Shown piece by piece: positions 1 to 23,869 of a stretch of DNA of 23,869 nucleotides (the first letter of the stretch is position 1; each line of letters starts with the position of its first letter). The notes under the pieces are model-generated. The model made no database searches and was not told the DNA's origin. It saw only the letters and a list, made by a program, of their open reading frames with translations. The translations under genes and the position numbers were made by a program. Source of the stretch: a virus; the IMG/VR virus record IMGVR_UViG_3300025674_004606, positions 1-23,869 of that record; one strand, written 5' to 3'.

Positions 1-3000
1 TCGCCGCCCGAGACTTCGTTGAGGAAAGCAGCGAGGTCTTTGTAGGTGTCAGGCGTAGTGCTGAAGCCCTGCTGTGACTTCGGCCCCTTTTGGAACGGGC
101 TGTCCGCGTAAATCTTGTTGCCGGCAAAGTTGGTGTTTGTTGCGATTTCCATTGGCAACTTGCCGACCTGCGGCGTGAGTGACACAGCAGGGTTTGCAGT
201 GATGCCAGAACCAGCCATCGGGTTGTAGGCTTCTGCTGCCATCAACGCTACTTCCCCTGCGGCCTCGGCCAACGTCATGTTCCCAAGCAAGACTTCGGCA
301 GTCGTCCGGCCAACACCGTGGAAGAGGTGATACCCGTAGGGCAAGGGCAGACGCATGTAGTCGTCCGTCATTGGAATCTTCATGACGTGATACGCACGCT
401 TCTCGTGATCAGGCACAAGGTCCATGGTCATCATGCCTGTCTCTTCATCCTCCTCATCAAAGAAGGCATTCAAGAATCCCTGCATCATGCCCAAGCCGGC
501 GATGCCCATGGCAACCTTACGGCCTCTTCCGGTGGTAAGCAGACCAGCAGAACGAGACGCACCCTGTGCCGAAGCATTGAAGAACAGGTACATCTGGTTC
601 AACGCTGCACCGATGGTGCCCTTACGGCTGAAGTCAACCGTCACGTCACGGGCACGCAAAGCAGCCTGCTCGTTGTTTGCACCTGACTCCTTCATCGCAA
701 CGTATGTCGCAAGGCGAGACGCATTCTCAAATGCTTCCCCTACCTGAAGGATGATGTCGAATGGCTTCATGAATGGGGTGCGAGCAGTCTTGCCCCGTGC
801 CAACCTTCTCGCCTTCTTCATCGCTTTGGCAAGCGACTCCTCATTTAGCGATGCGTACATGACCTGCCGCCCGCCGGCACGGATCATCTCTTCGTACTCT
901 TTGTGAAGCGGACCCTTGCGACCGAAGGCGTAGGCCAACGCAGTCTGGAATGCTTTGGGCACGTTCTTGAGAGTCGCAAGACCCTGCCCCTTCTCGCCAG
1001 TCTGTGCGATGACTGCGGTCTGCACATCGCGGGCAGCGTTGCGAAGCATAAACTCCGGGTCCAGTTGGGTGATCACCATCCGGTAGTAGGAGTTGAGAGA
1101 CGCCAACACTGCCATGGTGTGATCCATTGCAGAACCGTTGGGGTCGTAGGCTCGGTTGAGAACCTTGGCAAGCGGGGCACTCTTCACATGCACATAGACT
1201 GCATCGCCCTTCTTCTTCTGCACACCGTTGATCTTGGTGTCCTTGTCCAAGTAAACCGTCATCACATCTTCGCGTTGTTTGAACGACTGGTCTGGCTCGG
1301 TAAACTCTTTGCCGTTACGCAGCCTTCTCACCGTGGGCAACTTGGTAAGAACCTCAAACATCTCAGGCTCTTGAAGCATGTTGGACAGGCGGACCAATCG
1401 GTTGCCGGTGCGGTTCTTTTCAAGGCGGGCAGCAACATCAGCCCGACGCATCAAGGCATTCATCAGGACGTTGCGTGCCCGGCCCTGCCGGCCATGTGCA
1501 GCACGCATGCCGCTACCAGATGCACCGACGATTTTTCGGCCAACCCCAACGCCACCCAAAGTTTTGCCACCGACAATACCGCCCAATTCCATGTCCAACT
1601 GGTGCAGGATGTCATCAGACACACCTTGCAGTGGGACGTAGTGAGGGTAGGTGTTACCGAGGATCTCCAACTCGTTAAGCGTGATCAACCCATTCTCATA
1701 CAGCAGGTCGAGGTTCTCGTGGTTGATGTTGTCAAACAATCCGCCCAACTCCTCGAATGCCATGGACCTTGGGTCGGCAGCAATGTTGTTGAGGATCGCC
1801 TGCGACTCTGCGTTGGTCATGCCAGAGCCGCCATCTTTCGGGCCACCGCGTCTTGCAATCTCCGCGTTGCGTTCTTGAGCGTGGCGGGCGTAGAGAAACT
1901 CTTCCATCTCCTCCTCTTGGATTTGCTCCTCCGCCATCAACTGCATGATCGGCTTAACCGTGTTCTCGGAGTAGTCGTTGATGCGTTCCGCAACCCTTTG
2001 GTTTTGCAGGCGGGCACCGGCATACACATCACGATCACGGGGCACGGGCCGGCCAGTCCGCTCCGATGCCAGATCCACTGCGTCTCTCAGGTCAACCAAC
2101 CTGTCAACGAACGCTCGTCTGGCTCTCGTGCCCAAGTCGTTGTCGAACCGCATGTTCCCTGTTTCAGGGTTGCTGCGAACAGACGCTCGGATGTCAAAGG
2201 ATTGTGACGGGTTGCCCTCGTAAGGCGTCCGCACATCTGCATCTCCAAACTCTGCAACACCCGGCATGGCAGATCGAAGACTGCCGACCTCAGTGATGGC
2301 AAACGCAACCGAGCCTGCATAGATATATTTCTTGCCGGCAATGCCAACCTCATTTGCTTCCGCAACCGTCAATTCGGCCCCCACGCCGGCCTCGTTCGCA
2401 AAGTACGGGTAAATGTTCCCGGCGTAAGAGTCAACGACCATCTCACTTACCTTGGCCCTGCTGTCCTCCATCGTGTAGGTCATAGTGTTTTTGGCAATGA
2501 CCTCAGTTACCGACGCCAAATCTTCTACGTTCTCCTTAATCTCGCGTGCGACTCGTGCAATCGCTTTTTGACTCGCTTCTTTCCATTCTTCTATCAGCAT
2601 GTATCCCGCTTCCGTATCTTTTGCCTTGAGCAGGCGAGGGGGGACAGGCATGTTCAAACTTTCAAAGGCTGCGATAACACTGGGGCTGCTAGTACTCAAA
2701 TCAAATCTGCCACCAAGCGGGGTTGACGTTTCAATGTCAACTGACACGACACTTGCCTTGCTCAGGTCGTGCAATTTTGCAACTCCGTGACGTGTATTGC
2801 GAGGGTCAACCCCAAGCAACTCGGCTTTTTGAATGACGCTTGTGCCATCCAATTCGAGTCCGCCATCCTCACGAACCATGAAGTGGATTCGGATTTTTCC
2901 TTTACCAATCTGGTAACCAATGGGAGTATGGGTTGGAAGGTTCTGGTCCCTTTGATCATTTATAAGGCTATCCAGACGCAGCGTTCCATCCTGCAAACTT

Positions 3001-6000
3001 CTGTTTATACTCTTCAGGCCAGTCATGATGACCACGGGACCAAAGCCGTCCCCGAACGAATCGCTGTCCAGCCCCTTGAGATCCGAACCAAGAACGTCCT
3101 TGAGTTGGATGGTGTGTGCATCCTTCCGAACGTCGGTGGTTCGACCGTCAGTCGCAATAGCCCTGTGCTTGTCATTCATAGACTGGGCCAAACTCATGTC
3201 TGGACCCATGGCTACCGGGTTGAAGATGGGTATTCCTGTGCCAGAATCCAAGTCCGCTGAACCAAAGCCGTCACTGATAATGATCCCTGTTGGGTTGAAG
3301 ACCATCGGTGCAATGCCGCCAGCGTCGTAAGTAGAACCGTGGGGTTCGTAGCCCCTCGCAACACCAAAGTCAGGAGTGGTGTAGATGCCCGGCCCTGCCG
3401 CACCATATTCAGATGCAATAAGTGGGTTGCCTTCTTGTTCCCCTTTGACATAGCCGCCATGGAAAAGAATGAGTTGGCGATTCATAACCTCTTGGGTATA
3501 AGTCATAGGAGAACCCTGAACAAACTGTTCCCCATCCGGCCCCAGTCGGTCGGCGTAAATGAAGAACATGTTCTGGGTTGTGGCGGTTTGGCTTGGAATC
3601 TGCTCGAACGGCACGTCCTGATCAGGGTCACCCGTCTGTCTCGATGGCTGACCCTTGTATGAGTTAAGAAAAGCGGAAGACCGTGGCTCGTACTTGAGTC
3701 TCGCCTTGAGATCAGCCGGCTCAGGCTTGGGCATTACGACTTCATTTCCGTCTTCGTTGGTGACGGAATACGGAAGCCTTACGCGGCCAGTGTCTTTGTC
3801 GTTGAAGTTGCCGTCGTCCGTGAACGTACCACGCAAGGTTTCACCAAGCCTGTAGACCACCGGCATAAGCGGAATGCCCTCCTGCTTCATTGCGTGTGCC
3901 CTGTGCCGTCCTTCATGACCGACCACTGCCATGCTAATCCGGTTTTCATCAACAGCAGTTTCTGCAAAGGACAGGTGGGGGATGTCAGTCAGAGTCCCGG
4001 TATCGGTTGCTATCGAGTTTCTGATTGCACGGCGTAAGTCTCTCAGCGTATCAGCATCCAATTGATCTTTGTCAATATGCTTTGCCAAGGCCAAGTAGTC
4101 CTCAGGTGACATGTACACCAAACCAAGTCGAGCGTTGGGGTTGTTGTGGTCGCGTCTTGCTTGCTCGATTGCATCATCTCTGAACAGCCCGTTGGCCCGC
4201 TCAACATCAGTTCGACGGCTGGCACGCAGTGACGGACCCTCGTTGCCTTCCAGCATGAACGACGTGTCGATGTTGCGAACAAACTGGCGTGCGGTGTTGC
4301 GACCCATGCCGGCGTCGAGGCTTCGCTCGGTCCACCCTTCAGGAGTCAAGCCGGGGTTGTCTGCTTCAAACTCAGACAACTTGGCGTCAACTGCTTCAAC
4401 ATCAACACCCAGTGCTGCAAGGCGTGGGGCGAAGGATCTGGTTTCGCCACTTATGAGTGTCCGTGTTCGACCAGACATCAAGTTGGCGATGTCATCACCA
4501 CGGTAAATGTCTTCTTTTGCCAACTCCTGCTGCGAGATAGACCGCACGCCACGGGTTGGTGCCTTGCCTTTTTCCAATGCTTCACGCTGCTGCTTGCGTG
4601 CAGTAGAGACACGTTCACCCGTCACGCGGCCAATGACCCAAATCGCAGCCTGTGCCTCAGAGGGGTGGACGCCCAAACGCTCTGCCACACGACGAGTGAT
4701 GATGGTGCCAGCCCGGTACTCGGTGGCATTTGTCATCTTGTTCTTGTCGATACCGAACGCCCGTGCCATCAATGAGTCATTGACCACTTCGCCCAACTCA
4801 TTCATCAAAGCCTTGTGGAATGCAGACACCTTCAGCCCGCTGAACCTTTGCTCGGACTCTTCACGGGTAGTGGAAGACAGCACAGAGATGGTGTTGTTTA
4901 CGTCGGCCCCAAGATAGAGAATGCTCTCTCCAGTTTCGGGGTCAGTCAAAGCCTGCTCAATCTTTGTCGGGTCGGTCGGCCTGCCGGCAGCAGTCCACCG
5001 CTCGAACACTGTGAGTGTCAAGTCAACTGAGTCAGCGACAGACTTGCTTGGTGAGGTTGCAGACAGCACGCCTGCCAACTGCCACGAAGGAACGCCCATG
5101 CCCTTGGCCGCTTCGCTGATGGTGATGGATGCAGCGGTGTACCACTTCATCATTGGAAGGCCCATCTCTGCTGCCCTTTCGAGCAAAGGCTGTCCTGTCA
5201 TGGTGCCGATTCGCTCAACCACCTTGGCTGCCGCAGCCGGCCCTTGCATCGCCATCTTCTCTTCTTCAGTCAGGTACGACGCTTGTGGACCCAAGGCTTC
5301 GTCGATGCGACTCAGGTGTCGCTCACGGTTCCGCTTGCTGAATCGCATGGCTTCAGCCGGTGGGATAAACACCTTCTGGTCTGCAAACGGACGCTCGGAC
5401 TGAGGAACAAAGTCAGGGTCGTTGCGACTTGGCACAGTGCCATCGGGACGCAGCATGTGCGGGCCGTAGTTAACGAAAGCATTCTGCATGCGTGACTCTG
5501 CAATCAAAGCCGGCAGTGCTTCATCGGTGTACATCTGGCTGTGCTGCCATGCGGCATGCTCTTCGCCATAGGTGCCGAAGGTGCTGCCTTCCTTTGCGTG
5601 ACCGAACACATCGTGAACCACGCGGAACACATCGTTGTCAGTCATCTCATAGACTTCACCTGAATCCGTCTGGACCATACGCCCAGTTGGCTCCAGCAGT
5701 GGGTGGTCGTTTGCCTGCTCGTCTGTGTTGCCAAATGATTCCGCACCGGGCTGGATGGTGGGGTAGAAGACCAAGGTCTTTTCTTCTTCCACTTGGTCAC
5801 GCATCTTGCGGGACGGGCTGCGTCGGTCGGTGTCACCTTCTGCTGGCGGCTGGTATGGCTCCCTGCCGGGCGTGGAGTGTGCGATGAAGTTGTAGCCCGC
5901 ATCAATCAGCATGTCGTACTGGGCACGAGTCTCTTCCTTAAACGCCGCGTACGCTGCCATGACATCTGGGTTGCCCGGCTCGTGGGCTGCGTCGTGCATG

Positions 6001-9000
6001 GCCTGACCCAAGCGGATGTGACGCTGCTCATCGAACGGGCGGATGGATGTGTCGATCTCGGGCAAGCCGTTCAACTCGTTGTACTTGGCGGCAAGGTCAC
6101 GCAGATCAGAGTTGGTGCCGTTGTTAACACCTCGGCTGAATCGTGCGTCTGACTCCGCATCGCCAATCATGCGGCCACGGTGGTGACGCTTGCGTGCCCG
6201 ACCGATCTGTCGCTGGGCTTCTGAGCGATGGTTCTCTGGAGTCTTGTCCGCTACAGCCTTGACCTGTTCGTCAATGTCCTCCGGACTACCAACTTCTTCT
6301 TCAAGCCGGCGTGCAACTTCCTTGTCCAGCATCTGCTGAAGACCGGGCAGGTCGCCATACATTTGCTTGGCGGCTTCCGGGTCACTCGCCAAAGCAACCA
6401 CTTGCTCCTTTGCCAACTCATCCACGTTGACAGGTGACACCTGCTCCATGGGCGTACCGGGTCCACCGGCCAGCACCACATCAGATGCTTCTTTTGCGTT
6501 TGCCTTTTCGACGGTGCCGTCCTCGCGGAAGATGGGCACTGACTCAATGGGCTTCTTGTCAATCTGTGCTTCGAGTGCCGCAAGCCACAACTGTGCTTCG
6601 CGTCCACGCAGGCCGGCCCGCGTCAACAGCCGGCGGAAGCGGTCGGCAACTTGCTGACCCAAGGATGCGTTGGGGTTGAGAACGGAATCAATGCCAGCCT
6701 GCGAGCCAACTCGGGCACCACGGTCGGCTAGGTTCTCATCCACGAACAGGTTGACTGCACGCTCGATCTCTCCAATGCGTTGAAGGGCAAGACGCCTCTG
6801 TTCTGAGTCAGGTGCAGTTTGTGCTTCAAGTCTTTCCTGCTCAAGTTCAGCGGTGATCGAGTTCAACACCTCGTCAATCTCGCCGCGTCGTAATTGGACT
6901 TGCACTTGATTGATCTTGGCTTGGTCGCCGGCGTACAGTTGTTCAGCCAACGCAATAATGTTCAAGCCCTTACGTTTGCCCACCTCTCCGGTAGCCCTTG
7001 CCTGCGACATGCGTGCGGCCAACTCGCCCCAAAGCAAAGGGTTCTCCTTTGCCAAGTGGTGAACATTCTCGTGCTTCAGAGTGTCAAGCCAGCCAAGAGT
7101 TCGGCCATCTTGGTTCGCGTCGATGCCGATCACGTCGGTGCCACCGCTGACGGCTGCACCCTCAATAGCAACTTCATTCCCCTCGCCGTCAAGAGCAGTG
7201 TAGAACACAACCTTGCGGCCCAGTTTGTTACCAGCCTCAACAATCCCTTGCTGTTCAGGGGTCAAGTTCTCAGAGGGGATGATCTCAACAATCCCGTCCT
7301 TGCCGACCTCTCGTTTCAGAGATGCTTCGAGTTGAGCCTCCTGTGCTTCGATAGTAACATCCACTCCACCAAGGCCAGCCTCGACTGGTGCGGCATCAAA
7401 CGAGTTGATAATGTCACCGGGGTCCAACCTCAAGGTGCCGCCCGTCATCGTCTCCAGCACTTGGTTGCCATCGAGCAAAGCAACACCCATGTTGCCAGCC
7501 AACTTTGCCTGCAAGGAAGCATTGTCAAGTAGGGCGTTCTGATCGTGACGCCCGTCAGTCACCATTACCTTGACGACGTTTCCATCAGCGTCAACAATTG
7601 CTACGCCAGTCAGACCATCTGCTACACCCTCTTTACCACGCCCTTCCAGAGTGGCAGGGTCCATGCCCATGACGTTTCCGGTAAACGCACCCAAGCGTCC
7701 CGTATCGCCATGTGCCAATACCTGCTGAATGTCTACGCCGCTGTTTGGGTCAAAGACAAGGAACCCGTCACCCATGCTGACCACGCCCATGCCGGAGAGT
7801 TGGTCGTCGGACAGGGTGTCAAGTTCTTCTTGAGACATCAACGCAGCAGACTGACTGCCGGCCTTTACCAGTTGCAGTTTGCCGCTGGCTACTGGAGCAG
7901 CCTGATCGCCAGTCGCTGTGTGTTCGTGGTATCCAATACCCAAGCCACGGTCGCCGTTGTCTGCTGCGTTTGCTAGATGCGTGCTGGCTACAGCGATACG
8001 TTGCTGCTGCCGAATACGCTGGTCAAGGTTGCGGACACTAGCACTAGTGGACACAGTGTTTTGAACACTGGACATTCCTGACATGCCCACACCGCCGGCC
8101 AGAACAGCGTTCATAATCTCAACGCCGTCAAGTTCTCCACTGATCATTCTTTGATCAATGAAAGTTTGCATGCCTTCGGTCATGCCTTCAAGCGTCATAT
8201 CGCCAGCAACGCGGCGGAACATGCGGGCCAACTCTTTGGCCTGCTCTCTGCGATAGATTGCAGTTGCTGTCTGCGTACCTTCTCTGTTGAAGGATCTCTT
8301 CAGTGAGTGATAGACGGCTGCTTGAGCAGCGGACATACCTGTTTCATCCAACTGCGACCGGCCAAGCAAACGACCGATAGGCACATAGTCAACGGAGGTC
8401 TTTGCAGCACCAGCCCCTAGCACCCAACCCAAATCAACGTCTGAGGTAATTGACATCTCGCCGTCTTTAAACTCTGCCTCAAAGTTTTCACTCTGATTCA
8501 GGCCGGCTGATTCACCAGTGTTGCGGGCGTAACCAAATGGTGACGCAGCAGCGGCACTGCTGGTTGCAATCCGCCTGCGAACCTGTTTCGCCACCATCTT
8601 CTCGGTTTGTTCGATAATGAGATCGTCGCGTACCTTGTCTGTAACCTCGCCACCAAACTCTTTGGTGATTCGTTTCTCAACTGACGCGGCAATCTTCTTG
8701 TTGAGGCGGGAACCTGCTTTCAACGCAAGTCCTTCGGCTGCTTCTTTTGCACCCTTCTTTGCAATCCTGCCAGCAATGCCACCGGGAACCAGCATCATCG
8801 CCAGATCGGGGAAAGCCATGCCGATGTTGTAGCCAATAGCCTCGCCAAGGCTACCCTCTTCTTCGCTGCCTTCCCCGCGATACATCGAACGACGAGCGTA
8901 TGGATCATACGCCGCACCCACCATGTTGCGAGACTGCATCACCATCAATTCAGACTCGCCCTCACCCGATTCAAGACCCTCTTGAACCAATCCGGGCAAG

Positions 9001-9728
9001 GCGTAACGGAATGTGGTGTAGACGCTGTCAAGTCCGTCCTCAAGACCCCGAAGAAGTGCATTGTTGTTGCGGTATTCATCGCCCTCTTCGCCCATAATTG
9101 GGGTGTCGCCGTACTGGGCAAACCGCAAAGCCAGTTCAAAGTCCTTGCCACTCAGTCCTTTTGATGCTGCCAGTTGACGAAGCACCATTTCGCGGGTCGC
9201 ACTGACGTAATCAGTGGACTCCAACTCACGAGATACCTGCTTAGCGTAGTTATCGTCAGTTTGCATCAACGCTTCGTGGAGTCGCCGCAGCCTGCTAACC
9301 GTATCCACGAAATCTTGGCTCATCTCGAACCACTCAGGCACCACACGTTGGTAATCCTCAATCTCGTCGCCGGCATTGATGCGAGCCAAGAGGTCTTCAT
9401 TGGCAAAGAAGTATGTGTGTTCGTCCAGTTCTACCTCTACAGCCTCTGGTTCTGGCTCTGGCTTTGCCTCTGGCTTGGGCTGGACGGGTGTTGGCAACTC
9501 AACAGGGTCCGGCTCAGACATAATCTCCACCGGCTCAGGCACTGGCGGAGGTGTGTCTTGCGGCTCTACCGCTGCACCTTCAGTAAGTTGCTGCAAACCT
9601 TCAGCACCTGTCTCTACAGTCTCCTCTTCCTCCTCCTCCGTCTCGGCGGGTGGATCAAGTGATTCAGTCAAAGGCTTTTTGTTTTCGCCTTCAGGGTCAA
9701 GGAAGTTTGTAAAGTCGGCTTGCGTCAT
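1..9728 (-). CDS. Giant polyvalent (multi-domain) phage protein, 3' end outside window
   Basis: One open frame of 3,242 codons from ATG at 9728 to the left edge, with no stop. It starts in a TAATG overlap with the upstream gene. Modules seen, in residue order: acidic/Pro-rich low complexity (about 15-110); Ala/Gly-rich amphipathic stretch (300-345); HExxH as HENVH (H886, E887, H890); HDVFGH (H1372-H1377); possible helix-hairpin-helix-like segment (1500-1700); GHEGRHRAHA ParB-like motif (about 1938-1947); ADP-ribosyltransferase-like segment with LFHGG (H2090) and GIYTTPDFGVARGY; YARHAQERN (H2616); DPEFMLRNAARD (N2897) with FNAS further on, matching the LPD38/PLxRFG style of C-terminus. This is the architecture of phage polyvalent proteins, which are packaged or injected and carry several effector domains. 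The SD is weak (GGA 8 nt upstream), so translation probably depends on coupling. The visible end resembles the last part of PLxRFG proteins, so perhaps 100-300 residues are missing. Gene identity is well supported; activities are inferred from motifs. Confidence 0.93.
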   Translation of the reverse strand, partial: MTQADFTNFLDPEGENKKPLTESLDPPAETEEEEEETVETGAEGLQQLTEGAAVEPQDTPPPVPEPVEIMSEPDPVELPTPVQPKPEAKPEPEPEAVEVELDEHTYFFANEDLLARINAGDEIEDYQRVVPEWFEMSQDFVDTVSRLRRLHEALMQTDDNYAKQVSRELESTDYVSATREMVLRQLAASKGLSGKDFELALRFAQYGDTPIMGEEGDEYRNNNALLRGLEDGLDSVYTTFRYALPGLVQEGLESGEGESELMVMQSRNMVGAAYDPYARRSMYRGEGSEEEGSLGEAIGYNIGMAFPDLAMMLVPGGIAGRIAKKGAKEAAEGLALKAGSRLNKKIAASVEKRITKEFGGEVTDKVRDDLIIEQTEKMVAKQVRRRIATSSAAAASPFGYARNTGESAGLNQSENFEAEFKDGEMSITSDVDLGWVLGAGAAKTSVDYVPIGRLLGRSQLDETGMSAAQAAVYHSLKRSFNREGTQTATAIYRREQAKELARMFRRVAGDMTLEGMTEGMQTFIDQRMISGELDGVEIMNAVLAGGVGMSGMSSVQNTVSTSASVRNLDQRIRQQQRIAVASTHLANAADNGDRGLGIGYHEHTATGDQAAPVASGKLQLVKAGSQSAALMSQEELDTLSDDQLSGMGVVSMGDGFLVFDPNSGVDIQQVLAHGDTGRLGAFTGNVMGMDPATLEGRGKEGVADGLTGVAIVDADGNVVKVMVTDGRHDQNALLDNASLQAKLAGNMGVALLDGNQVLETMTGGTLRLDPGDIINSFDAAPVEAGLGGVDVTIEAQEAQLEASLKREVGKDGIVEIIPSENLTPEQQGIVEAGNKLGRKVVFYTALDGEGNEVAIEGAAVSGGTDVIGIDANQDGRTLGWLDTLKHENVHHLAKENPLLWGELAARMSQARATGEVGKRKGLNIIALAEQLYAGDQAKINQVQVQLRRGEIDEVLNSITAELEQERLEAQTAPDSEQRRLALQRIGEIERAVNLFVDENLADRGARVGSQAGIDSVLNPNASLGQQVADRFRRLLTRAGLRGREAQLWLAALEAQIDKKPIESVPIFREDGTVEKANAKEASDVVLAGGPGTPMEQVSPVNVDELAKEQVVALASDPEAAKQMYGDLPGLQQMLDKEVARRLEEEVGSPEDIDEQVKAVADKTPENHRSEAQRQIGRARKRHHRGRMIGDAESDARFSRGVNNGTNSDLRDLAAKYNELNGLPEIDTSIRPFDEQRHIRLGQAMHDAAHEPGNPDVMAAYAAFKEETRAQYDMLIDAGYNFIAHSTPGREPYQPPAEGDTDRRSPSRKMRDQVEEEKTLVFYPTIQPGAESFGNTDEQANDHPLLEPTGRMVQTDSGEVYEMTDNDVFRVVHDVFGHAKEGSTFGTYGEEHAAWQHSQMYTDEALPALIAESRMQNAFVNYGPHMLRPDGTVPSRNDPDFVPQSERPFADQKVFIPPAEAMRFSKRNRERHLSRIDEALGPQASYLTEEEKMAMQGPAAAAKVVERIGTMTGQPLLERAAEMGLPMMKWYTAASITISEAAKGMGVPSWQLAGVLSATSPSKSVADSVDLTLTVFERWTAAGRPTDPTKIEQALTDPETGESILYLGADVNNTISVLSSTTREESEQRFSGLKVSAFHKALMNELGEVVNDSLMARAFGIDKNKMTNATEYRAGTIITRRVAERLGVHPSEAQAAIWVIGRVTGERVSTARKQQREALEKGKAPTRGVRSISQQELAKEDIYRGDDIANLMSGRTRTLISGETRSFAPRLAALGVDVEAVDAKLSEFEADNPGLTPEGWTERSLDAGMGRNTARQFVRNIDTSFMLEGNEGPSLRASRRTDVERANGLFRDDAIEQARRDHNNPNARLGLVYMSPEDYLALAKHIDKDQLDADTLRDLRRAIRNSIATDTGTLTDIPHLSFAETAVDENRISMAVVGHEGRHRAHAMKQEGIPLMPVVYRLGETLRGTFTDDGNFNDKDTGRVRLPYSVTNEDGNEVVMPKPEPADLKARLKYEPRSSAFLNSYKGQPSRQTGDPDQDVPFEQIPSQTATTQNMFFIYADRLGPDGEQFVQGSPMTYTQEVMNRQLILFHGGYVKGEQEGNPLIASEYGAAGPGIYTTPDFGVARGYEPHGSTYDAGGIAPMVFNPTGIIISDGFGSADLDSGTGIPIFNPVAMGPDMSLAQSMNDKHRAIATDGRTTDVRKDAHTIQLKDVLGSDLKGLDSDSFGDGFGPVVIMTGLKSINRSLQDGTLRLDSLINDQRDQNLPTHTPIGYQIGKGKIRIHFMVREDGGLELDGTSVIQKAELLGVDPRNTRHGVAKLHDLSKASVVSVDIETSTPLGGRFDLSTSSPSVIAAFESLNMPVPPRLLKAKDTEAGYMLIEEWKEASQKAIARVAREIKENVEDLASVTEVIAKNTMTYTMEDSRAKVSEMVVDSYAGNIYPYFANEAGVGAELTVAEANEVGIAGKKYIYAGSVAFAITEVGSLRSAMPGVAEFGDADVRTPYEGNPSQSFDIRASVRSNPETGNMRFDNDLGTRARRAFVDRLVDLRDAVDLASERTGRPVPRDRDVYAGARLQNQRVAERINDYSENTVKPIMQLMAEEQIQEEEMEEFLYARHAQERNAEIARRGGPKDGGSGMTNAESQAILNNIAADPRSMAFEELGGLFDNINHENLDLLYENGLITLNELEILGNTYPHYVPLQGVSDDILHQLDMELGGIVGGKTLGGVGVGRKIVGASGSGMRAAHGRQGRARNVLMNALMRRADVAARLEKNRTGNRLVRLSNMLQEPEMFEVLTKLPTVRRLRNGKEFTEPDQSFKQREDVMTVYLDKDTKINGVQKKKGDAVYVHVKSAPLAKVLNRAYDPNGSAMDHTMAVLASLNSYYRMVITQLDPEFMLRNAARDVQTAVIAQTGEKGQGLATLKNVPKAFQTALAYAFGRKGPLHKEYEEMIRAGGRQVMYASLNEESLAKAMKKARRLARGKTARTPFMKPFDIILQVGEAFENASRLATYVAMKESGANNEQAALRARDVTVDFSRKGTIGAALNQMYLFFNASAQGASRSAGLLTTGRGRKVAMGIAGLGMMQGFLNAFFDEEDEETGMMTMDLVPDHEKRAYHVMKIPMTDDYMRLPLPYGYHLFHGVGRTTAEVLLGNMTLAEAAGEVALMAAEAYNPMAGSGITANPAVSLTPQVGKLPMEIATNTNFAGNKIYADSPFQKGPKSQQGFSTTPDTYKDLAAFLNEVSGG

Positions 9729-17725: not shown

Positions 17726-19030
17726 TTACGCGATTGCGACTGGAGCCACGATGCCTTGACGTTGGCGAGAACCGCAGAAGAGGTTGTACCAAGTATCGGT
17801 GGGCTGGACATAGGTGAATGGCTGGTTCGGGTGCCGCATCACTTCATGCTTGACCATGTAGCGGTTGGCGTGGAAGAAGCCGTGGAGATAGTTGAAGTTG
17901 ACGAAGTAGTACCGGGCACCCTTACAGATGGTGTCGTCTGCACTCTCAGAGTCAGCACCATCGGCGGTTGCACCCTTCTGGCCGGCAGCAGTGTCAGCCA
18001 CGTTGGCACCAACGTCTGCGTCGTAAATCTTCGCAGTGTCAAGTTCAGAGCAGTACATCAACTCAATACCGGAGTAGGTAGGAGAGTTGTACGCTGGGTC
18101 TTGGTACGACACCAAGGTATCGTTAGAAGCACGAAGCAATCGCTTGTACTGGTTGATACCGTCACGCGAGCAAAGAATGATCTGACGGTTCAAGTTGCCG
18201 TCTTCAAAGTACTGTGCTTGCGTGCTTGGTGGGATGTACTGCAACCGCAGGAACATTTCGTCAAACGCACCGAAGAGGTCGTAAATGCTAGTGGTGCCTG
18301 ACTCAAGTGCGGCTTCGTTGTAGTGACCGTTGAAGTCAGCGGGCTTGGTTTGCACGCCGGAGTTGGCGGCAGCACCCTTGTTGTAGAACACGACTTCGTT
18401 GGTCCAACGCAGTTCGCTGGTTGGGTCAACACCCATCACGGTGCTGGAGTAACCAAGAGGTCGGCCACCACGGAATCGACCAGTGACGGCAGTTGCGTCA
18501 ACAGTCTTCTCGGTGATGAACGAAGGGATGGACGAAGGCAACTTACCGTTGGCTCCTTCCATTTCGGTAGCGTTGCCAAAGGTTGGGCGGAACAAGTCAG
18601 TTTCCATACCGTTCAGCATGGAAGTCATCATTCGCTGCTCTTTGATTCGCTTGAGACGCTTGTAGACGCCCTTCTGGCCTTCACCGGAAAGACCTTCACC
18701 GAAGTTCAACTCGATTTCAGAATCCGTGAAGGACAGGTGATCCAACGCAAATCGCCAGTGTTGGGTGATCGTGTCGGTCACTTGTGGGTTGGACCAAGAG
18801 AACACTTCGTTTGGCTGATAGTGTTGGTAGGTGTTTGATTCGTCAAACAGAACGACATCACGGATTTCCGTGCCGCCTTGGATGGTTTTATCTTCCCCTT
18901 TGCCCTTGAGCAAACGGGAGAAACAGTATGTGTTCTTCACTGCTTCATTCACGACATCCTGAGCCGAGGTCATGTAGGTCGGCCCGGTTGAGTTCATGAA
19001 GTCAACGAAGGTTTGGACTGGCGATGCCAT
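17726..19030 (-). CDS. Major capsid protein (434 aa)
   Basis: The product has 434 residues, the size of a HK97-fold coat protein. Features in line with a coat protein include a helical N-terminal arm (MASPVQTFVDFMNSTG), the motif LLKGKGEDKTIQGGTEIRD, a long spine-helix-like segment (GVYKRLKRIKEQRMMTSML, about residues 120-142) and a C-terminal beta region with many aromatic residues (NFNYLHGFFHANRYMV). It follows the scaffold and precedes a decoration protein, the normal head-gene order. A strong AAAGGA site lies eight bases before ATG, in keeping with abundant synthesis. No protease domain is seen at its N-terminus, so maturation probably relies on a separate scaffold. I am confident of the role; the fold is inferred. 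Confidence 0.92.
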   Translation of the reverse strand: MASPVQTFVDFMNSTGPTYMTSAQDVVNEAVKNTYCFSRLLKGKGEDKTIQGGTEIRDVVLFDESNTYQHYQPNEVFSWSNPQVTDTITQHWRFALDHLSFTDSEIELNFGEGLSGEGQKGVYKRLKRIKEQRMMTSMLNGMETDLFRPTFGNATEMEGANGKLPSSIPSFITEKTVDATAVTGRFRGGRPLGYSSTVMGVDPTSELRWTNEVVFYNKGAAANSGVQTKPADFNGHYNEAALESGTTSIYDLFGAFDEMFLRLQYIPPSTQAQYFEDGNLNRQIILCSRDGINQYKRLLRASNDTLVSYQDPAYNSPTYSGIELMYCSELDTAKIYDADVGANVADTAAGQKGATADGADSESADDTICKGARYYFVNFNYLHGFFHANRYMVKHEVMRHPNQPFTYVQPTDTWYNLFCGSRQRQGIVAPVAIA

Positions 19031-19042
19031 GTATCAAATCCT

Positions 19043-19927
19043 TTAGGAAAACATTGCTTTGACCTCTTCAGGATCTTTGCCGCTCATCAATGCATCAAGA
19101 ACCGCTTCGTCCCTCTCGGCTCCAGTCAACGTGCGTTTGGCAGGAGGCGTTGCTCCAGAAGACCGCACGGGTGTTGGCTGTGCTTTCGCAGGGGGTGGCG
19201 TCAGGTTTGCCTCTTTAATCTTGGAATAATTCGGCTCGCCATATTCTTGACAGCACGCGACGAACATCATCTGTTCGACGGATTCAAAGCGACCGGGATA
19301 CTGTTCGGCCAATGCTGACATAGAACGAGTGATCTTTTCACGGTCAAAGTCCGCGTCAGAGAATACTGAACGCATGTTTGATTCAGCCCGTGAAAGTTCC
19401 GACTGAATCGTCAATGCCTGAACCTGCTGCATTTGGCTTTGCATCTGCTCGGCCATTTCTCGCAGGGGCTTCGCGGCGTCCGCACCGTATCTCGCTTCGA
19501 CATCTGCAAACGGGTCATCGGCTTCTGTGCTGGCTTCTGCCGGCGTATCGCCTTCGGGGGTTTGCTTCTCTTCGAGAGCCTTGAGCCTAGATCCGTATGA
19601 GTCAACTTCGGACTGCCGTTTTGCAGCCTTGTTGCCCCATTCGGTTAGGTTCTCTACGTCGTTCTCCTTCATCTGTGCGATGACGGATTCGGGAACGCCG
19701 TCCCGCTTCAGAGCGTTGACGGCTTTGGTCAGGGCGTCATCGTCGGTTGTTACCTCAGATGATGCTTCGACCGGCTCGCCCTTTGTCTCTTCGTGCATCC
19801 CTATAAGACGGTCGAGAACCGCATCGTCCTGCGACTGGGCAGGGTTCGACGCTTCGACAGCCTCTGAGGTGGACTCAGACACTTCGGGCACAGAGTTGGG
19901 TTCAACGATATTGCTGTCCATTTCCAT
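19043..19927 (-). CDS. Scaffolding protein (294 aa)
   Basis: This is a 294-residue, very acidic, low-aromatic protein: Ser/Glu/Val-rich disordered N-terminus, central helical segment with Gln/Met repeats (EMAEQMQSQMQQVQALTIQS, about 157-176), Pro/Ala-rich linker (TPPPAKAQPTPVRSSG) and a short basic-to-acidic helix at the C-terminus (TLTGAERDEAVLDALMSG). Composition and place between portal and major coat match podovirus scaffolding proteins, which template procapsid assembly and often bind coat through the C-terminal helix. The start is uncertain: ATG 19927 or the ATG two codons later (19921) lack a close ribosome binding site; AAAGGAG lies about 22 bases upstream, unusually far. Confidence 0.86.
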   Translation of the reverse strand: MEMDSNIVEPNSVPEVSESTSEAVEASNPAQSQDDAVLDRLIGMHEETKGEPVEASSEVTTDDDALTKAVNALKRDGVPESVIAQMKENDVENLTEWGNKAAKRQSEVDSYGSRLKALEEKQTPEGDTPAEASTEADDPFADVEARYGADAAKPLREMAEQMQSQMQQVQALTIQSELSRAESNMRSVFSDADFDREKITRSMSALAEQYPGRFESVEQMMFVACCQEYGEPNYSKIKEANLTPPPAKAQPTPVRSSGATPPAKRTLTGAERDEAVLDALMSGKDPEEVKAMFS

Positions 19928-19955
19928 GGACTACATCGTACCGTATTTACTCCTT
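19928..19955 (-). promoter_or_regulatory. Unusually distant ribosome binding site for the scaffold gene
   Basis: On the minus strand, AAAGGAG overlaps the end of the upstream 98-residue gene and is separated from the scaffold ATG by about 22 bases including GTACGATG. No nearer purine-rich site is seen. A short fold in the spacer, or an initiation event just upstream, may be needed. The motif is seen directly; its use is inferred. Confidence 0.35.
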
Positions 19956-20243
19956 TGTGTAGCCATGCTGCCTTGCAATCTCACGCTCGTGTGTTTGGGA
20001 TCGAATTATTGGCTTGCCTGACTTGGTAGAGTCACACCCTTCAAGGTTGCGGGGGAGGGTCTGGGAGACATACGGATATTGGTGGGTCTTGCGTGCAATG
20101 CCGCCTTCATCCAGTTGGAAGGACGCGACCCGCTGCATCTCGACACCGTTGCGGACAATCCAGTCCCCGATCTTCGGGGCTGTCCCCATGGGGAAATCCA
20201 ACTCGATGTCTGAACCCTCTTTGGTCTTAAACAGGTAAATCAA
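19947..20243 (-). CDS. Small conserved-type phage protein between portal and scaffold (98 aa)
   Basis: The frame opens with TTG at 20243, overlapping the portal TGA stop as TTGA, with GAGGG six bases upstream; MIYLFKTKEGSDIELDF is a believable N-terminus. An internal ATG at residue 19 is the other option. The protein is 98 residues, beta-rich at first (IGDWIVRNGVEMQRVASF), then a basic C-terminal half ending SGKPIIRSQTHEREIARQHG. That last segment recalls the tail of small FmdB-like phage proteins (a Lys/Arg-rich 'S-R-x-x-R-E-x-x-x-R-H-G' ending), but the zinc-binding cysteine pairs are absent (one Cys only). The function is unknown; a link to procapsid assembly is suggested only by position. 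Confidence 0.75.
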   Translation of the reverse strand: MIYLFKTKEGSDIELDFPMGTAPKIGDWIVRNGVEMQRVASFQLDEGGIARKTHQYPYVSQTLPRNLEGCDSTKSGKPIIRSQTHEREIARQHGYTKE

Positions 20244-22006
20244 ACTCCAGCCCTCGCTGTAACGGATCGCAGTGCGGCAGCGATCTGCTGTTCATTAGCA
20301 GCCGTGCCGCCGGCAGGATTCTCTGATGGGGCAAGTTGTGACACTCCACCACCACCACTGCCGGCAGGACCAATCATACCTTGTTGCATGGCCTTGCTTG
20401 CTTTCTCCACGTCAATGATGGAGCCGAGGCTTGGCATGTTCATGGTCTGCCCCAGCATCTCAATGACACGCGGCCAGTCCACCCATGACGCCTGTGCGAA
20501 CAGGGGGGCAATGTTTCCAATCAACCCAACTACTTCAATAGCACGACGTTGCAGTACAACCTCAGATGTTCGCTCCATCGAGAACGGGTCAATCTGAAGC
20601 ATCAGGTCGTCGTAGTCACCTTCGACATCACCGCCCTTGAAGACTGGATCAATCTCGCCCAACTGCATCATGGCCTCACGACCAAGCGGCAAAGAGATGC
20701 GGTCGTCTTCAAACATGTACCACATCACGGTGTGCAAAGCATCAGTCACGCCTTCAGCAAATTGACGCTGAATGTGGGACAGGCGGACCGTGGCACCGGA
20801 CTCCGCGACCGCAACCTCAGTCGCAGTGGCACTGCCGGACAGGTTGCCCCGCTGGGCGTCGTTGATGCCGGACTGCCGGTCAAGTTTTTGTGTCAGCAAC
20901 TCAGAGTACTGAACGTGCTGCGGGGTCAGGCCACCCAACTCCATGGGCATGATTCGCTGCTGGTCAAGACCTTCAACAGGGATGACGTACATGTCCTGCT
21001 GTTCTTTGACATCCGTTGCCAACTTCTTGTTCTTGGCATCGACCAGATACAGACGCTTGTACGCCTGCCCGTTGCGAACCATCTGCCGCAGCGACGAGTT
21101 AATCTCAAGCGTCAGTTGGTTGGTTGCCGTCAACGGACCCAAGGGGTATGGGTCATCAGGGACGTGGTACACGCCGAACAGGGTGTAGGGTCCAGACCGT
21201 GGGCCGTAGTACTCCTGCGGCTTTCGGATGTACCCAACGTACGGTTCATCGTCTTCGCTTGATGTCGGTCCAGAAACCGCAAGCGTGTAGAGCATTCCAT
21301 TGTTGGTTGGGTCTACGGTGTCAGGCACCCAGATTTCGTAGATGGCAACTTCGTCGCGGTAGTTTGACACATCGCGGTAACTGTCAGCGTCACGCTGCTT
21401 GTCAACGCCTTCGCCAGACGCCATATCTGCAATGGCCTGTGCATCGTACGAATCGTCGTTCTCTGCCAATGCTTCCAACTCAGAGCGAAGCATGGTGTAT
21501 GAGTGGCCCATGTAGCGGGCCTCTGTCCAGTGCTTTGCTTTCGGGTCAATAAAGAATTGGTCCGGTGCCACCCGGTAGCAGCGTGGCAGGTTCTTCACTG
21601 GTCCTTCGGCAGTACGTTGTCCGGGCACTGGCTCGCTGACTGTGAGCATGACGCCCCAGCCAAACAGCATGTCCATGGCAACGCGGTGCAGCGTTTCGCG
21701 GTAGTTGGTGTCGCTAATCCAACGGTTCAGTGCCAACTGAATCTTCGTGACAGTCTCGCCTTGCAGGGCTGGCCGGCGGCTGTCTACACGAACCGCAGGG
21801 TTGTCGTAGATGATCTTGGGCAGCACAAGACTGATGTACTCGTAGGCGTGGTTGTCTACGTCCGGTGGGACCTCATTCTTGTAGTAAGCGTCATAGTCCA
21901 CGCCGGCAAAGCGTTTGACCATGCTCTTCATAGATGTGAGGTGACGGTCCCGGAAGTCTTCAGCCGCTTCGACTTCGCGGGCCATGTTGAACGCATCTGT
22001 GTTCAT
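20240..22006 (-). CDS. Portal protein (588 aa)
   Basis: The 588-residue protein fits the portal size range of podoviruses. The N-terminal part has the helical pattern FRDRHLTSMKSMVKRFAG and HAYEYISLVLPKIIYDNP, followed by VTKIQLALNRWISDTNYRE, typical of portal stem/wing regions; a region about 340-410 contains ELLTQKLDRQSGINDAQRG, a common portal motif of the sort 'R-x-G-I-N-D-x-x-x-G', and the C-terminus (from about 530) is Gly/Ala/Gln-rich and flexible. The portal forms the dodecameric DNA channel at one capsid vertex and nucleates head assembly with the scaffold. The ATG sits in a TAATG overlap with the DUF5681 gene with no clear ribosome binding site, so coupled translation is likely. Confidence 0.92.
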   Translation of the reverse strand: MNTDAFNMAREVEAAEDFRDRHLTSMKSMVKRFAGVDYDAYYKNEVPPDVDNHAYEYISLVLPKIIYDNPAVRVDSRRPALQGETVTKIQLALNRWISDTNYRETLHRVAMDMLFGWGVMLTVSEPVPGQRTAEGPVKNLPRCYRVAPDQFFIDPKAKHWTEARYMGHSYTMLRSELEALAENDDSYDAQAIADMASGEGVDKQRDADSYRDVSNYRDEVAIYEIWVPDTVDPTNNGMLYTLAVSGPTSSEDDEPYVGYIRKPQEYYGPRSGPYTLFGVYHVPDDPYPLGPLTATNQLTLEINSSLRQMVRNGQAYKRLYLVDAKNKKLATDVKEQQDMYVIPVEGLDQQRIMPMELGGLTPQHVQYSELLTQKLDRQSGINDAQRGNLSGSATATEVAVAESGATVRLSHIQRQFAEGVTDALHTVMWYMFEDDRISLPLGREAMMQLGEIDPVFKGGDVEGDYDDLMLQIDPFSMERTSEVVLQRRAIEVVGLIGNIAPLFAQASWVDWPRVIEMLGQTMNMPSLGSIIDVEKASKAMQQGMIGPAGSGGGGVSQLAPSENPAGGTAANEQQIAAALRSVTARAGV

Positions 22007-22404
22007 TAGTCGTCGCTTTCAATGCCACGTTGCAAATACGCTTCAAGAGCGAGATCGACCTCTGCGTCCTGCTGACGCTGCTCTTCTTGTGCCACCTGCA
22101 AACGGTGTACTTGTTCAATCGGACCTTCGTCACGAGCAACAAAGTCCTTGAGAATCGGCCAAGCCTTGACCGGATCTTCCTTGATTGCTTGGTGGATGAG
22201 GTCCACCATTTCGTCAGCACGAGTGCGACCATCCGCCGTCTCCTCTGCGAGGACACCGCGTAGCCGGGCCATGAGGCTGACTGCCCCTTTTGGCTTACCA
22301 CCGGGGTTACCGCTTATCCCTTTGACAAAGCGGCCCCGGTCGTCTCTGGTTTTACATTCCTCCGCCACGGGTGCGGCGTCGGTTACGGATGGCTTTGCTT
22401 GCAT
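22006..22404 (-). CDS. DUF5681-type protein, candidate small terminase / packaging factor (132 aa)
   Basis: Residues about 23-45 read DDRGRFVKGISGNPGGKPKG, a clear match to the DUF5681 signature 'G-R-F-x-x-G-x-S-G-N-P-x-G-R-P-K-G', a basic N-terminal motif common in phage and prophage proteins next to terminase and portal genes. The rest (VSLMARLRGVLAEETADG onward) is helical and ends acidic. Small terminase subunits often occupy this place, so a packaging or DNA-recognition role is reasonable but not shown. It is coupled by TAATG to both the 205-residue gene before it and the portal gene after it; AAGG is also present about seven bases before its ATG. Confidence 0.85.
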   Translation of the reverse strand: MQAKPSVTDAAPVAEECKTRDDRGRFVKGISGNPGGKPKGAVSLMARLRGVLAEETADGRTRADEMVDLIHQAIKEDPVKAWPILKDFVARDEGPIEQVHRLQVAQEEQRQQDAEVDLALEAYLQRGIESDD

Positions 22405-22477
22405 TAGCCTTGACTACCTTCTTTTTCATTGCGGGCTTCTTGCCCTTTCGCATTCCCTTGCTCATTCCGCGTGCCAT
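22352..22477 (-). CDS. Possible tiny basic protein in an alternative frame (41 aa)
   Basis: This 41-codon frame overlaps the 3' end of the 205-residue gene and the 5' end of the DUF5681 gene. It begins MARGMSKGMRKGKKPAMKKK and ends RRRTRGGGM, with extreme Lys/Arg/Gly/Met content like small nucleic-acid-binding phage peptides. A good site, GAGAGGA, lies six bases before the ATG at 22477; further in-frame ATGs occur at 22483 and 22492. No family is recognised. It may be a genuine overprinted gene or a by-product of the Asn/Gly/Lys-rich C-terminus in the other frame. Confidence 0.4.
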   Translation of the reverse strand: MARGMSKGMRKGKKPAMKKKVVKANASKAIRNRRRTRGGGM

Positions 22478-23021
22478 TGGCATTCCTCTCATCGACCCAC
22501 CGCAAATACTTGGGCGGGACGTTTTTGTAGTACCCACGCAACCGCAGGCGATTTGAAGCGTCTATCAATTCAGATCGACGCTGTAGAAAAATCATGGGAT
22601 AATCTTCATCGACCAACCAGTCCCATTCCTGATTGGCCCAGTCACAATCTACATCGGGCTGGTTTGCTTTGGGGGCATTCCCATTTGGCACAAAGGGCAC
22701 CAAGATAAAGTCTGACTTCTCAAGAATGCGGTTCTGGTCACGGCACCAGTCCTCAATCTCGTCCCAGTCCCACACCGCCCTGTTGATTGGCACCACCACC
22801 ACGATGTCTACCTCTGGGGGCCAGTAGTCAACGGCGTCCATAATTGTGCCTCTGCCACCTACGCGGATATCAACCCTGCCGGCGTCTAGGGCCGGCTTGG
22901 CAAATGGACAGGGGGGGATGTTATTGAAGTGAGGAGTAGGGACTGATAGCACCTGAACAATCCAGTTAAAAATTTCTTGTTTAACTTCGTTATGCGGCAC
23001 CTTTTGGTCGAAGTGTTGCAT
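22404..23021 (-). CDS. Unknown phage protein with PCPFAK motif (205 aa)
   Basis: I choose ATG 23021 (MQHFDQKVPHNEVKQEIFNW) because AAGGA lies eight bases upstream; a TTG six codons earlier is the alternative. The 205-residue protein has an aromatic/acidic character: PTPHFNNIPPCPFAKPALDAG (residues about 29-48) with a single conserved-looking Cys, a hydrophobic strand EVDIVVVVPI, the segment DWDEIEDWCRDQNRIL, FILVPFVPNG, and a C-terminal Asn/Gly/Lys-rich tail. The 'N-x-P-P-C-P-F-A-K' motif is reminiscent of unnamed proteins of environmental phages; no function is known to me. A Cys at a Pro-rich turn next to a beta strand could be redox- or metal-related, which is speculation. It is the first gene of the structural operon and is coupled to DUF5681 by TAATG. 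Confidence 0.82.
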   Translation of the reverse strand: MQHFDQKVPHNEVKQEIFNWIVQVLSVPTPHFNNIPPCPFAKPALDAGRVDIRVGGRGTIMDAVDYWPPEVDIVVVVPINRAVWDWDEIEDWCRDQNRILEKSDFILVPFVPNGNAPKANQPDVDCDWANQEWDWLVDEDYPMIFLQRRSELIDASNRLRLRGYYKNVPPKYLRWVDERNANGTRNEQGNAKGQEARNEKEGSQG

Positions 23022-23041
23022 CCTTGGATTCCTTCGCAAGG

Positions 23042-23053
23042 TATACTAGCAAC
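23042..23053 (+). promoter_or_regulatory. Possible promoter -10 element giving a leaderless message
   Basis: TATACT at 23042-23047 is followed by six bases and then the ATG of the plus-strand gene, with no ribosome binding site between. That spacing would place the transcript start at or next to the ATG. A matching -35 is weak. The hexamer overlaps GTATAC, a palindrome, so the minus strand also shows TAGTAT/TATACC facing the structural operon; a symmetric, divergent promoter is conceivable. Confidence 0.35.
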
Positions 23054-23371
23054 ATGTCAGACCAGAAGTACCACACCACAACAGACGACGGAATCCGGCT
23101 GCGGTCGGGCAAAGCCTCGATCTGCATCCGAGTCCCAGTTGACACTTACAGAGTTTTGAAGAGGCAGGCGGACAGTCTGCGAGGACCGTTCATGCCGGCC
23201 CCAACAGTGTCAGCCGTCGCGTCAAGAATCCTTGACAGTACCGTCCGTGACCTTGTCAGGGCAGGTCGGACACTGACCGATTTTGCCGAGGAGCAAGGCT
23301 CGGAGCCAACTCAGGATTGTTCGTCCAACCCACGCTCCTGCAAGGAAGGCGAGGACAATGATGAGAATTGA
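23054..23371 (+). CDS. Ribbon-helix-helix-like DNA-binding protein, opposite strand (105 aa)
   Basis: This is the only well-supported plus-strand gene. The 105-residue protein has a basic start (IRLRSGKA), a strand-like ASICIRVPVDTYRVLKRQAD, and TVSAVASRILDSTVRDLV, together a plausible strand-helix-helix layout of CopG/Arc-type repressors; the C-terminal third is acidic and Cys-containing. Such proteins bind operators as dimers and could govern the adjacent divergent structural operon, which starts only 32 bases away. ATG 23054 is preferred over an upstream TTG (23024) because a TATACT element lies six bases before it. Its last 150 bases overlap the minus-strand 57-residue gene, so one of the two may be spurious. 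The fold assignment is an inference from pattern, not a firm family match. Confidence 0.62.
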   Translation: MSDQKYHTTTDDGIRLRSGKASICIRVPVDTYRVLKRQADSLRGPFMPAPTVSAVASRILDSTVRDLVRAGRTLTDFAEEQGSEPTQDCSSNPRSCKEGEDNDEN

Positions 23372-23395
23372 CGTGAGAAAGTTTGTTTCAACCAT
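23222..23395 (-). CDS. Small single-TM protein (57 aa)
   Basis: ATG at 23395 is preceded by GAAGGA with an eight-base spacer, which is why I choose this start over a longer frame that extends to 23710. The 57-residue product has one clear membrane segment (about residues 6-24, LTSILIIVLAFLAGAWVG), a basic amphipathic stretch RTILSWLRALLLGKIG and a C-terminal CPTCPD motif with two cysteines. It overlaps the end of the 148-residue membrane protein by 85 bases in another frame. Small TM proteins near phage structural operons are often holin or lysis accessories; that is only a positional suggestion. It also overlaps the plus-strand regulator for 150 bases, and acidic codons on one strand tend to give Leu/Phe on the other, so some hydrophobicity could be coincidental. 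Confidence 0.55.
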   Translation of the reverse strand: MVETNFLTSILIIVLAFLAGAWVGRTILSWLRALLLGKIGQCPTCPDKVTDGTVKDS

Positions 23396-23757
23396 TGGGT
23401 AAATTCCTTCAAATCTAAGCCCAGTGTCAACAGGGCAACTATCACTGTACCGAAGATCAGCCAGACTGCCGCTTGGTTCTGGAGGATTCCCGCCAGCAGT
23501 GCGTTGATCACCACCAAGGCTACTCCTATCCCCAGTGGTATCCAGCCCTTGGAGGCTTGAGACACGAACAGAAGTGCTGCTCCCGAAATGATGCACAGGC
23601 CCCCCGCCCACCGAAGCGGGCTGAGACTGTGCAGTAGAACCGAATCTATTTCCGCCGGCTTGCTCGCCGGCAGATCGAAAGGGAGTTGCAGCCCCTCCCC
23701 ACTCTTGCAACTCAATGCAAGACAGGCGAATACAAGAGCAGCAATCCTGCTACTCAC
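23311..23757 (-). CDS. Polytopic membrane protein with lipoprotein-like N-terminus (148 aa)
   Basis: I set the start at GTG 23757 rather than the longer frame to 23844, because residues before it are the out-of-frame shadow of the upstream gene and GGGGGA lies three to four bases upstream. The N-terminus, MSSRIAALVFACLALSCKSGEG, is a short signal-like stretch ending in a Cys; it is lipoprotein-like but the bases of a strict lipobox are not met. Three membrane segments follow, about residues 50-66, 72-92 and 96-114, then an amphipathic tail with FTQWLKQTFSRQF. It overlaps the upstream gene by eight bases (GTGAGTAG). Role unknown; holin, membrane anchor or superinfection-exclusion protein are possibilities. 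Confidence 0.65.
   Translation of the reverse strand: MSSRIAALVFACLALSCKSGEGLQLPFDLPASKPAEIDSVLLHSLSPLRWAGGLCIISGAALLFVSQASKGWIPLGIGVALVVINALLAGILQNQAAVWLIFGTVIVALLTLGLDLKEFTQWLKQTFSRQFSSLSSPSLQERGLDEQS
23654..23671. repeat. Inverted repeat of GCCGGC with six-base loop
   Basis: GCCGGC at 23654-23659 and 23666-23671 are separated by TTGCTC and can form a six-pair GC hairpin on either strand, within the 148-residue coding region. No U-tract follows, so it is not a terminator. It is one example of the very frequent GCCGGC in this window. Confidence 0.5.
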
Positions 23758-23869
23758 AATTCCCCCACTCTGAGAGAACCTTGACGATGGCGTTGAAACC
23801 ATTGTTTGTCTGCGGGTGGTACTTGAATGCTGCAACATCACCAAGCACCTGCAACAAATCCTGAAATCC
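23750..23869 (-). CDS. C-terminal end of an upstream gene (39 codons visible)
   Basis: From the right edge inward, the minus strand reads in one frame GFQDLLQVLGDVAAFKYHPQ, continuing TNNGFNAIVKVLSEWGNCE and then TAG at 23750-23752. The composition is that of a folded soluble protein, with no membrane segment. The next gene starts inside this gene's last codons. The visible 39 residues are not enough to assign a family; it is not recognisably the end of a large terminase. Confidence 0.6.
   Translation of the reverse strand, partial: GFQDLLQVLGDVAAFKYHPQTNNGFNAIVKVLSEWGNCE

Follow-up and report, generated by a model that had tools for sequence, protein, structure and literature searches.

A putative regulator gene set antisense into the late genes of a phage, overlapping a conserved 57-codon membrane-protein frame

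In this study, the plus strand of a virus record, whose whole 23,869 bases were analysed and are called the window, was observed to carry one small gene that overlaps two minus-strand membrane-protein frames. Codon-substitution comparisons show all three open reading frames (ORFs) to be protein-coding and kept in the near clade, and simulations of single-frame evolution show that the main constraint on the shared bases comes from the 57-aa minus-strand frame. A sign of dual coding appears in 23222-23310, around the end of the plus protein's second predicted helix, and among the relatives only. We read the layout as an antisense gene set into a phage late operon in the manner of a noncontiguous operon, with a promoter of the regulator's own and mutual silencing, and we give this reading about even odds (a probability of roughly 0.5).

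According to the ORF map, all long genes of the window lie on the minus strand, including those for the major head protein (17726-19030), the portal (20240-22006) and a DUF5681 protein (22006-22404), which we take to be small-terminase-like. The plus ORF of 105 aa (23054-23371; ATG at 23054, stop at 23371) encodes a putative small DNA-binding regulator with a ribbon-helix-helix (RHH)-like pattern. Facing it on the minus strand are a 57-aa ORF with a single transmembrane (TM) segment and a conserved CxxC (23222-23395; ATG at 23395, stop at 23222), and a 148-aa membrane or lipoprotein-like ORF (23311-23757; GTG at 23757, stop at 23311), which is kept in relatives. The first-pass annotation had described a pair of genes, the plus and 57-aa ORFs, sharing 150 bases; the extent is right (23222-23371) and so is the pair, but a third overlapping frame on the minus strand, the 148-aa ORF, had been missed. 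As the 57-aa and 148-aa ORFs have 85 bases in common and every base of the 57-aa gene is common to either its plus or its 148-aa neighbour, the small gene is left without a private base. The overlap consists of a two-layer part on both strands (plus and 57-aa frames, 23222-23310), which is the only part with evidence of constraint on both frames, and that only among relatives, and a three-layer part of 61 bases (plus, 57-aa and 148-aa frames, 23311-23371), where the 57-aa frame alone showed constraint. The plus and 57-aa frames are read exactly in register: in the shared stretch, the reverse complement of every plus codon is a 57-aa codon.

Searches with the portal disclosed six records (L003-L008) in which portal identity is 73-76%, together with 65 other loci where it is 40-47%. 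The site is reached by four of the six near relatives, namely L004, L005, L006 and L008, the last of which is cut off inside the 57-aa gene; L003 and L007 end at the portal and so lie outside the site comparison. Since L004 and L005 are identical at this site, they make up three distinct relatives, not four. It had been proposed that conservation of only one of the two frames among homologous phages would speak against a real overlap; both were found in all four records, the plus frame at 46-51% identity and the 57-aa frame at 57-67% over the part held, and the 148-aa frame was kept in the three records that reach it (52-56%). The tails of the plus and 148-aa ORFs differ in length between relatives, and that of the plus ORF is shortened by an in-frame stop in L004 and L005. 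Profiles of the three proteins detected nothing else significant in the 85 loci examined (best other E 0.17), although the absence of the gene array from the further portal loci is weak evidence because, upstream of the portal, many of the 65 extend only a short way. Other viral-contig scans added no record with these genes to the four already known, and a genome-contig search with the plus-protein and portal alignments gave no relatives. Among named phages, no relative of the 57-aa or the 105-aa protein was found (best E 3 and 5), and the portal obtained one partial match only, at 24% identity. One further record, L002, was rejected as a relative, as its 18-residue match was judged spurious.

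Outside the overlap, the plus frame displays 7, 1 and 28 differences of 55 at codon positions 1, 2 and 3 between L004 and L006, and 22, 12 and 41 between the window and L004. Its omega there is 0.065, 0.066 and 0.074 in the three close pairs, indicating strong purifying selection, and its synonymous sites are saturated in the window pairs. The corresponding omega of the 148-aa frame is 0.17 for L004/L006, and 0.34 and 0.37 for the window pairs. From these substitution patterns we take it that the plus ORF is a gene. That it might instead be an accidental antisense frame would agree with the commonness of long antisense frames here, and with the lack of a family match and of a clear Shine-Dalgarno site, but we regard this as scarcely credible, because 56 codons outside the overlap, with no opposite gene identified, change in a coding-like manner at an omega of about 0.07, with 28 third-position differences against 1 at the second position in L004/L006. 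The view that both members of the antisense pair are real genes was borne out by the retention of both frames in the relatives and by codon-position patterns that are coding-like, though not along the whole overlap.

During analysis of chance expectation, we counted TTA, CTA and TCA at 102 of 6892 codons in nine late genes, and 3392 of the 6919 in-register 50-codon antisense windows opposite late genes (49%) were found to be open. With nearly half of such windows open, an open antisense frame at this site is weak evidence, and openness was rejected as an argument for overlap; in the sequence comparisons it is the conservation of both frames, not openness, that exceeds chance. Claims of antisense coding overlap often have nothing but an open frame behind them. 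Here the in-register geometry lets each codon be tested cleanly against controls taken from the phage's own genes, and the test locates the part that is truly two-sided.

Between the window and L004, the most variable position within the overlap is the wobble base of the 57-aa frame. Differences at plus codon positions 1, 2 and 3 amount to 14/29, 7/29 and 8/28 in 23222-23310, and to 10/20, 0/20 and 7/21 in 23311-23371. The pattern is less clear in the closer pair L004/L006, with 7/29, 2/29 and 8/28 in 23222-23310 and 6/20, 2/20 and 2/21 in the three-layer part. Because the plus and 57-aa codons are in register, it was possible to evolve one frame alone under constraint, read out the opposite frame and compare it with what is observed. 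Of 86 control windows in the portal and head genes, this simulation gave P<0.05 for the true gene in 84 and for the non-gene antisense frame in 1. In 11 of 12 ordered comparisons, constraint on the plus frame alone failed to account for the similarity of the 57-aa frame (P<0.05); only L008 to L006 departed from this (P 0.22), and P was at most 0.0005 in all six comparisons that involve the window. Under the reverse null, with the 57-aa frame constrained alone, the similarity of the plus frame over the whole overlap was unremarkable in the window pairs (P 0.47-0.98); among L004, L006 and L008, P ranged from low to borderline (0.015-0.086).

Another explanation holds that the 57-aa frame is untranslated and incidental, and that a DNA or RNA element conserves the sequence. 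No family match was obtained for the frame, and an element outside the families described in Rfam is possible, a search of 19900-23869 against those described families having given no match. We consider this very unlikely, as the changes concentrate at the wobble base of the frame, the relatives retain its start, Shine-Dalgarno site, TM segment and CxxC, and its similarity is higher than the plus-only null gives. We also looked in the 57-aa gene for a synonymous rate depressed relative to the portal, which was not clearly found: degenerate codons for the same residue had changed in 15/30 against 226/415 cases between the window and L004, 15/29 against 237/419 between the window and L006, and 11/35 against 209/503 between L004 and L006.

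In the two-layer part (23222-23310), the plus frame gave P values of 0.005, 0.041, 0.018, 0.054, 0.12 and 0.042 among L004, L006 and L008, and control windows did equally well or better in 0/113, 0/113, 0/80, 1/80, 2/80 and 1/80 cases, respectively; these six comparisons are not independent, as they have three sequences in common and the control windows overlap. No plus-frame signal was obtained in this part for window/L004 and window/L006, where 34 of 112 control windows were as good in each case. Within the shared bases, these single-frame tests favoured the 57-aa frame, and the plus frame in 23222-23310 among the relatives; they gave no sign of constraint on the plus frame in the window pairs or in 23311-23371.

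In the three-layer part, the last approximately 20 codons of the plus tail exhibit no constraint of their own in any informative pair. Against the 57-aa-only null, the plus tail gave P 0.40-0.98 in the six ordered comparisons among the window, L004 and L006 (the L008 pairs hold only 7 plus-tail codons in 23311-23371), and the 148-aa tail gave P 0.47-0.84 in six ordered comparisons. Functional three-layer coding in 23311-23371 was rejected, since both outer tails are explained by the 57-aa frame alone. The acidic plus tail faces hydrophobic codons of the 57-aa TM helix, and, judged on the alignments, this tail and the serine-rich tail of the 148-aa protein look like by-products of the 57-aa frame. 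Genomic compaction only, with three real genes whose ends collide, antisense frames that are often open and no regulation across the strands, would suit this lack of separate constraint on the two tails, their varying lengths in the relatives and the high share of open in-register windows; we hold it to be quite possible, at somewhat below even chances. It fits less well with two facts: every record that reaches the site has retained the arrangement despite a protein divergence of about 50%, and the regulator stands by itself against the late strand.

A second in-register antisense pair was noticed in the same relatives, beyond the window's end, hinting at a recurrent habit. There, a minus-strand ORF of 92-94 aa (L004:1699-1977 and L006:2095-2379) matches phrog_13182 (E 2.5e-13 and 3.4e-11), and opposite it, in register, lies a plus-strand ORF of 185 aa (L004:1525-2082 and L006:1927-2484). 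In one sequence pair, the 185-aa frame did not account for the similarity of the 92-94-aa ORF (P 0.0015 in one direction and 0 in the other), whereas the antisense ORF did account for that of the 185-aa frame (P 0.19 and 0.51). From this asymmetry, the 92-94-aa ORF is probably the constrained gene. The C-terminus of the 185-aa ORF carries a VPxPTSLPLLxLLAxxxxxR-like tail (VPSPTSLPLLALLAWKGRSRVRKT in L004 and IPTPTSLPLLGLLAIRGSRARSS in L006), which we take to resemble a PEP-CTERM sorting signal.

With regard to start signals, the GAAGGA Shine-Dalgarno site assigned to the 57-aa gene is present (23405-23410, minus strand), 9 nt before the start, and AGGAG stands at the matching place, 8 nt before it, in L004 and L006. 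Inspected by eye, none of the four loci has a well-placed Shine-Dalgarno site at the plus start. A -10-like TATACT (23042-23047, plus strand), likewise seen by eye, lies exactly 6 nt before the plus ATG, and TATGAT or TATGCT takes the same position in L004, L006 and L008; the box stands out because the sequence of the 6-nt spacer differs between the four loci. This suggests a plus transcript that is leaderless and begins from the box, which we put forward as a hypothesis only, given that the box is a post hoc observation, has no -35 partner and is absent from the output of the promoter scan. That scan gave one promoter-like match (shuffle mean 1.1), away from the plus gene, and the terminator scan gave four terminator-like matches (shuffle mean 1.7), two of them nested and none judged convincing. 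Again by eye, an inverted repeat CCTT-CGC-AAGG was observed in the window upstream of the -10-like box, in 23022-23053, and an inverted repeat GCCC-N7-GGGC in the matching intergenic DNA of L004, L006 and L008. These repeats upstream of the plus start could be a candidate operator.

None of the three proteins obtained a family match above curated cut-offs. As to the RHH-like regulator of the first-pass annotation, the model of the plus protein (mean pLDDT 51, low confidence) displays the strand-helix-helix order of such a fold (E21-25, H29-41, H52-69), but RHH_1 (PF01402) was matched by 0 of 3 records at E<=10, with a control that matched 14 of 14 genomes, and the protein had no match among PDB sequences. 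Pfam returned no RHH family for the whole plus protein at E<=1 nor for its trimmed core at E<=10, the best PHROG was phrog_7433, of unknown function (E 0.055), and a Foldseek search of the low-confidence model against the PDB gave 101 matches at E<=10, none of them at E<=0.001, which were taken as noise. The ribbon-helix-helix label stays a putative one. In the 57-aa protein, the TM segment that had been noted is predicted once, at residues 6-24, and the start, TM segment and CxxC are kept in relatives. The 148-aa protein harbors a lipobox-like Cys17, following the strict pattern in L004 and L006 and only the permissive one in the window, with two stretches above the hydrophobicity cut-off in L004 and L006 and three hydrophobic regions in the window; its model has a mean pLDDT of 48, and its alignment reached a best E of 2.3 against PDB sequences. 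T7-type lysis genes lie near terminase genes. Since the two membrane genes are close to the small-terminase-like gene, our guess is that the pair may form a lysis or membrane-permeability module. Holin and spanin families gave no match above the curated cut-off (Hol_Tox 12.3 bits against the 23.3 needed), and no endolysin was named in the subset of genes that was scanned.

As for the genome setting, a 39.7-kb relative, G001, carries exonuclease and ERF recombination genes on the plus strand and terminase and structural genes on the minus strand, and inside the minus-strand structural block the regulator is the only gene on the opposite strand. A further plus-strand ORF there, at 8686-9126, was taken for an artefact opposite basic genes. 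An opposite-strand gene within an operon is thus found in the ORF maps of both the window and G001, the operon itself being deduced from gene order. Further observations were made around the site. At 3-9728 on the minus strand, the window holds an ORF of at least 3242 aa that runs off the left end; the product of its 3-2402 segment matches giant phage proteins in their C-terminal parts (phrog_14770, E 2.4e-81, unknown function). Upstream of the membrane genes, the relatives harbor a run of very basic small ORFs, among which a 97-aa ORF (L006:3461-3754) matches several PHROG families of unknown function at their C-terminal ends (phrog_10346, E 3.8e-24).

In the noncontiguous-operon reading, the small probable regulator would have a promoter of its own and run counter to the late transcript, with a 3' end that crosses the C-terminal part of the 57-aa gene into the tail of the 148-aa membrane gene, and the 57-aa gene would have arisen by overprinting across the ends of its neighbours. 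Regulator RNA, being antisense to both membrane genes, would keep their output low through polymerase collision or decay of double-stranded RNA, and the regulator in its turn would be shut off by strong late transcription; the model itself predicts that the two transcripts silence each other. The earlier suggestion that opposite transcripts interfere and act as a switch between early and late expression is likewise a guess, and the placement of the regulator on the plus strand inside the late block of G001 counts in its favour. A stronger form, in which regulator transcription acts as a cis-acting timer that silences the membrane (perhaps lysis) pair until late transcription overruns it, with part of the stretch tuned for both strands, is in our view doubtful. 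If the switch reading is true, a phage group without a close named relative in our searches would harbor a compact timer that acts in cis.

No published report of this arrangement was found in the open-access PMC literature, and its features can be set beside several known systems. Leaderless mRNAs are found for phage repressors, as in lambda cI; the likeness is a small putative regulator with a -10-like box near enough for the mRNA to start at the start codon, whereas no sequence relation was found and the transcription start in the present phage is putative. Overprinted viral genes, including triple overlaps, are reportedly on record and resemble the present case in a new frame laid over existing coding sequence and in a small gene without private bases; in contrast to them, the phage overlap spans both strands. 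The antisense overlapping genes of E. coli O157:H7 (PMC7457138) are alike in having two coding frames on opposite strands of the same DNA, but, as far as that source indicates, those cases apparently rest on RNA-seq and ribosome profiling and the phage case rests on conservation. Unlike them also, the small phage gene is shared with both antisense and same-strand neighbours. In noncontiguous operons, as described in PMC7154746, an opposite-strand gene is interspersed in an operon with overlapping mRNAs, and such operons occur in S. aureus phages. The likeness of our case to the noncontiguous operon or excludon of that source lies in the opposite-strand gene inside the operon; there it is the transcripts that overlap, whereas here the coding sequences themselves do so.
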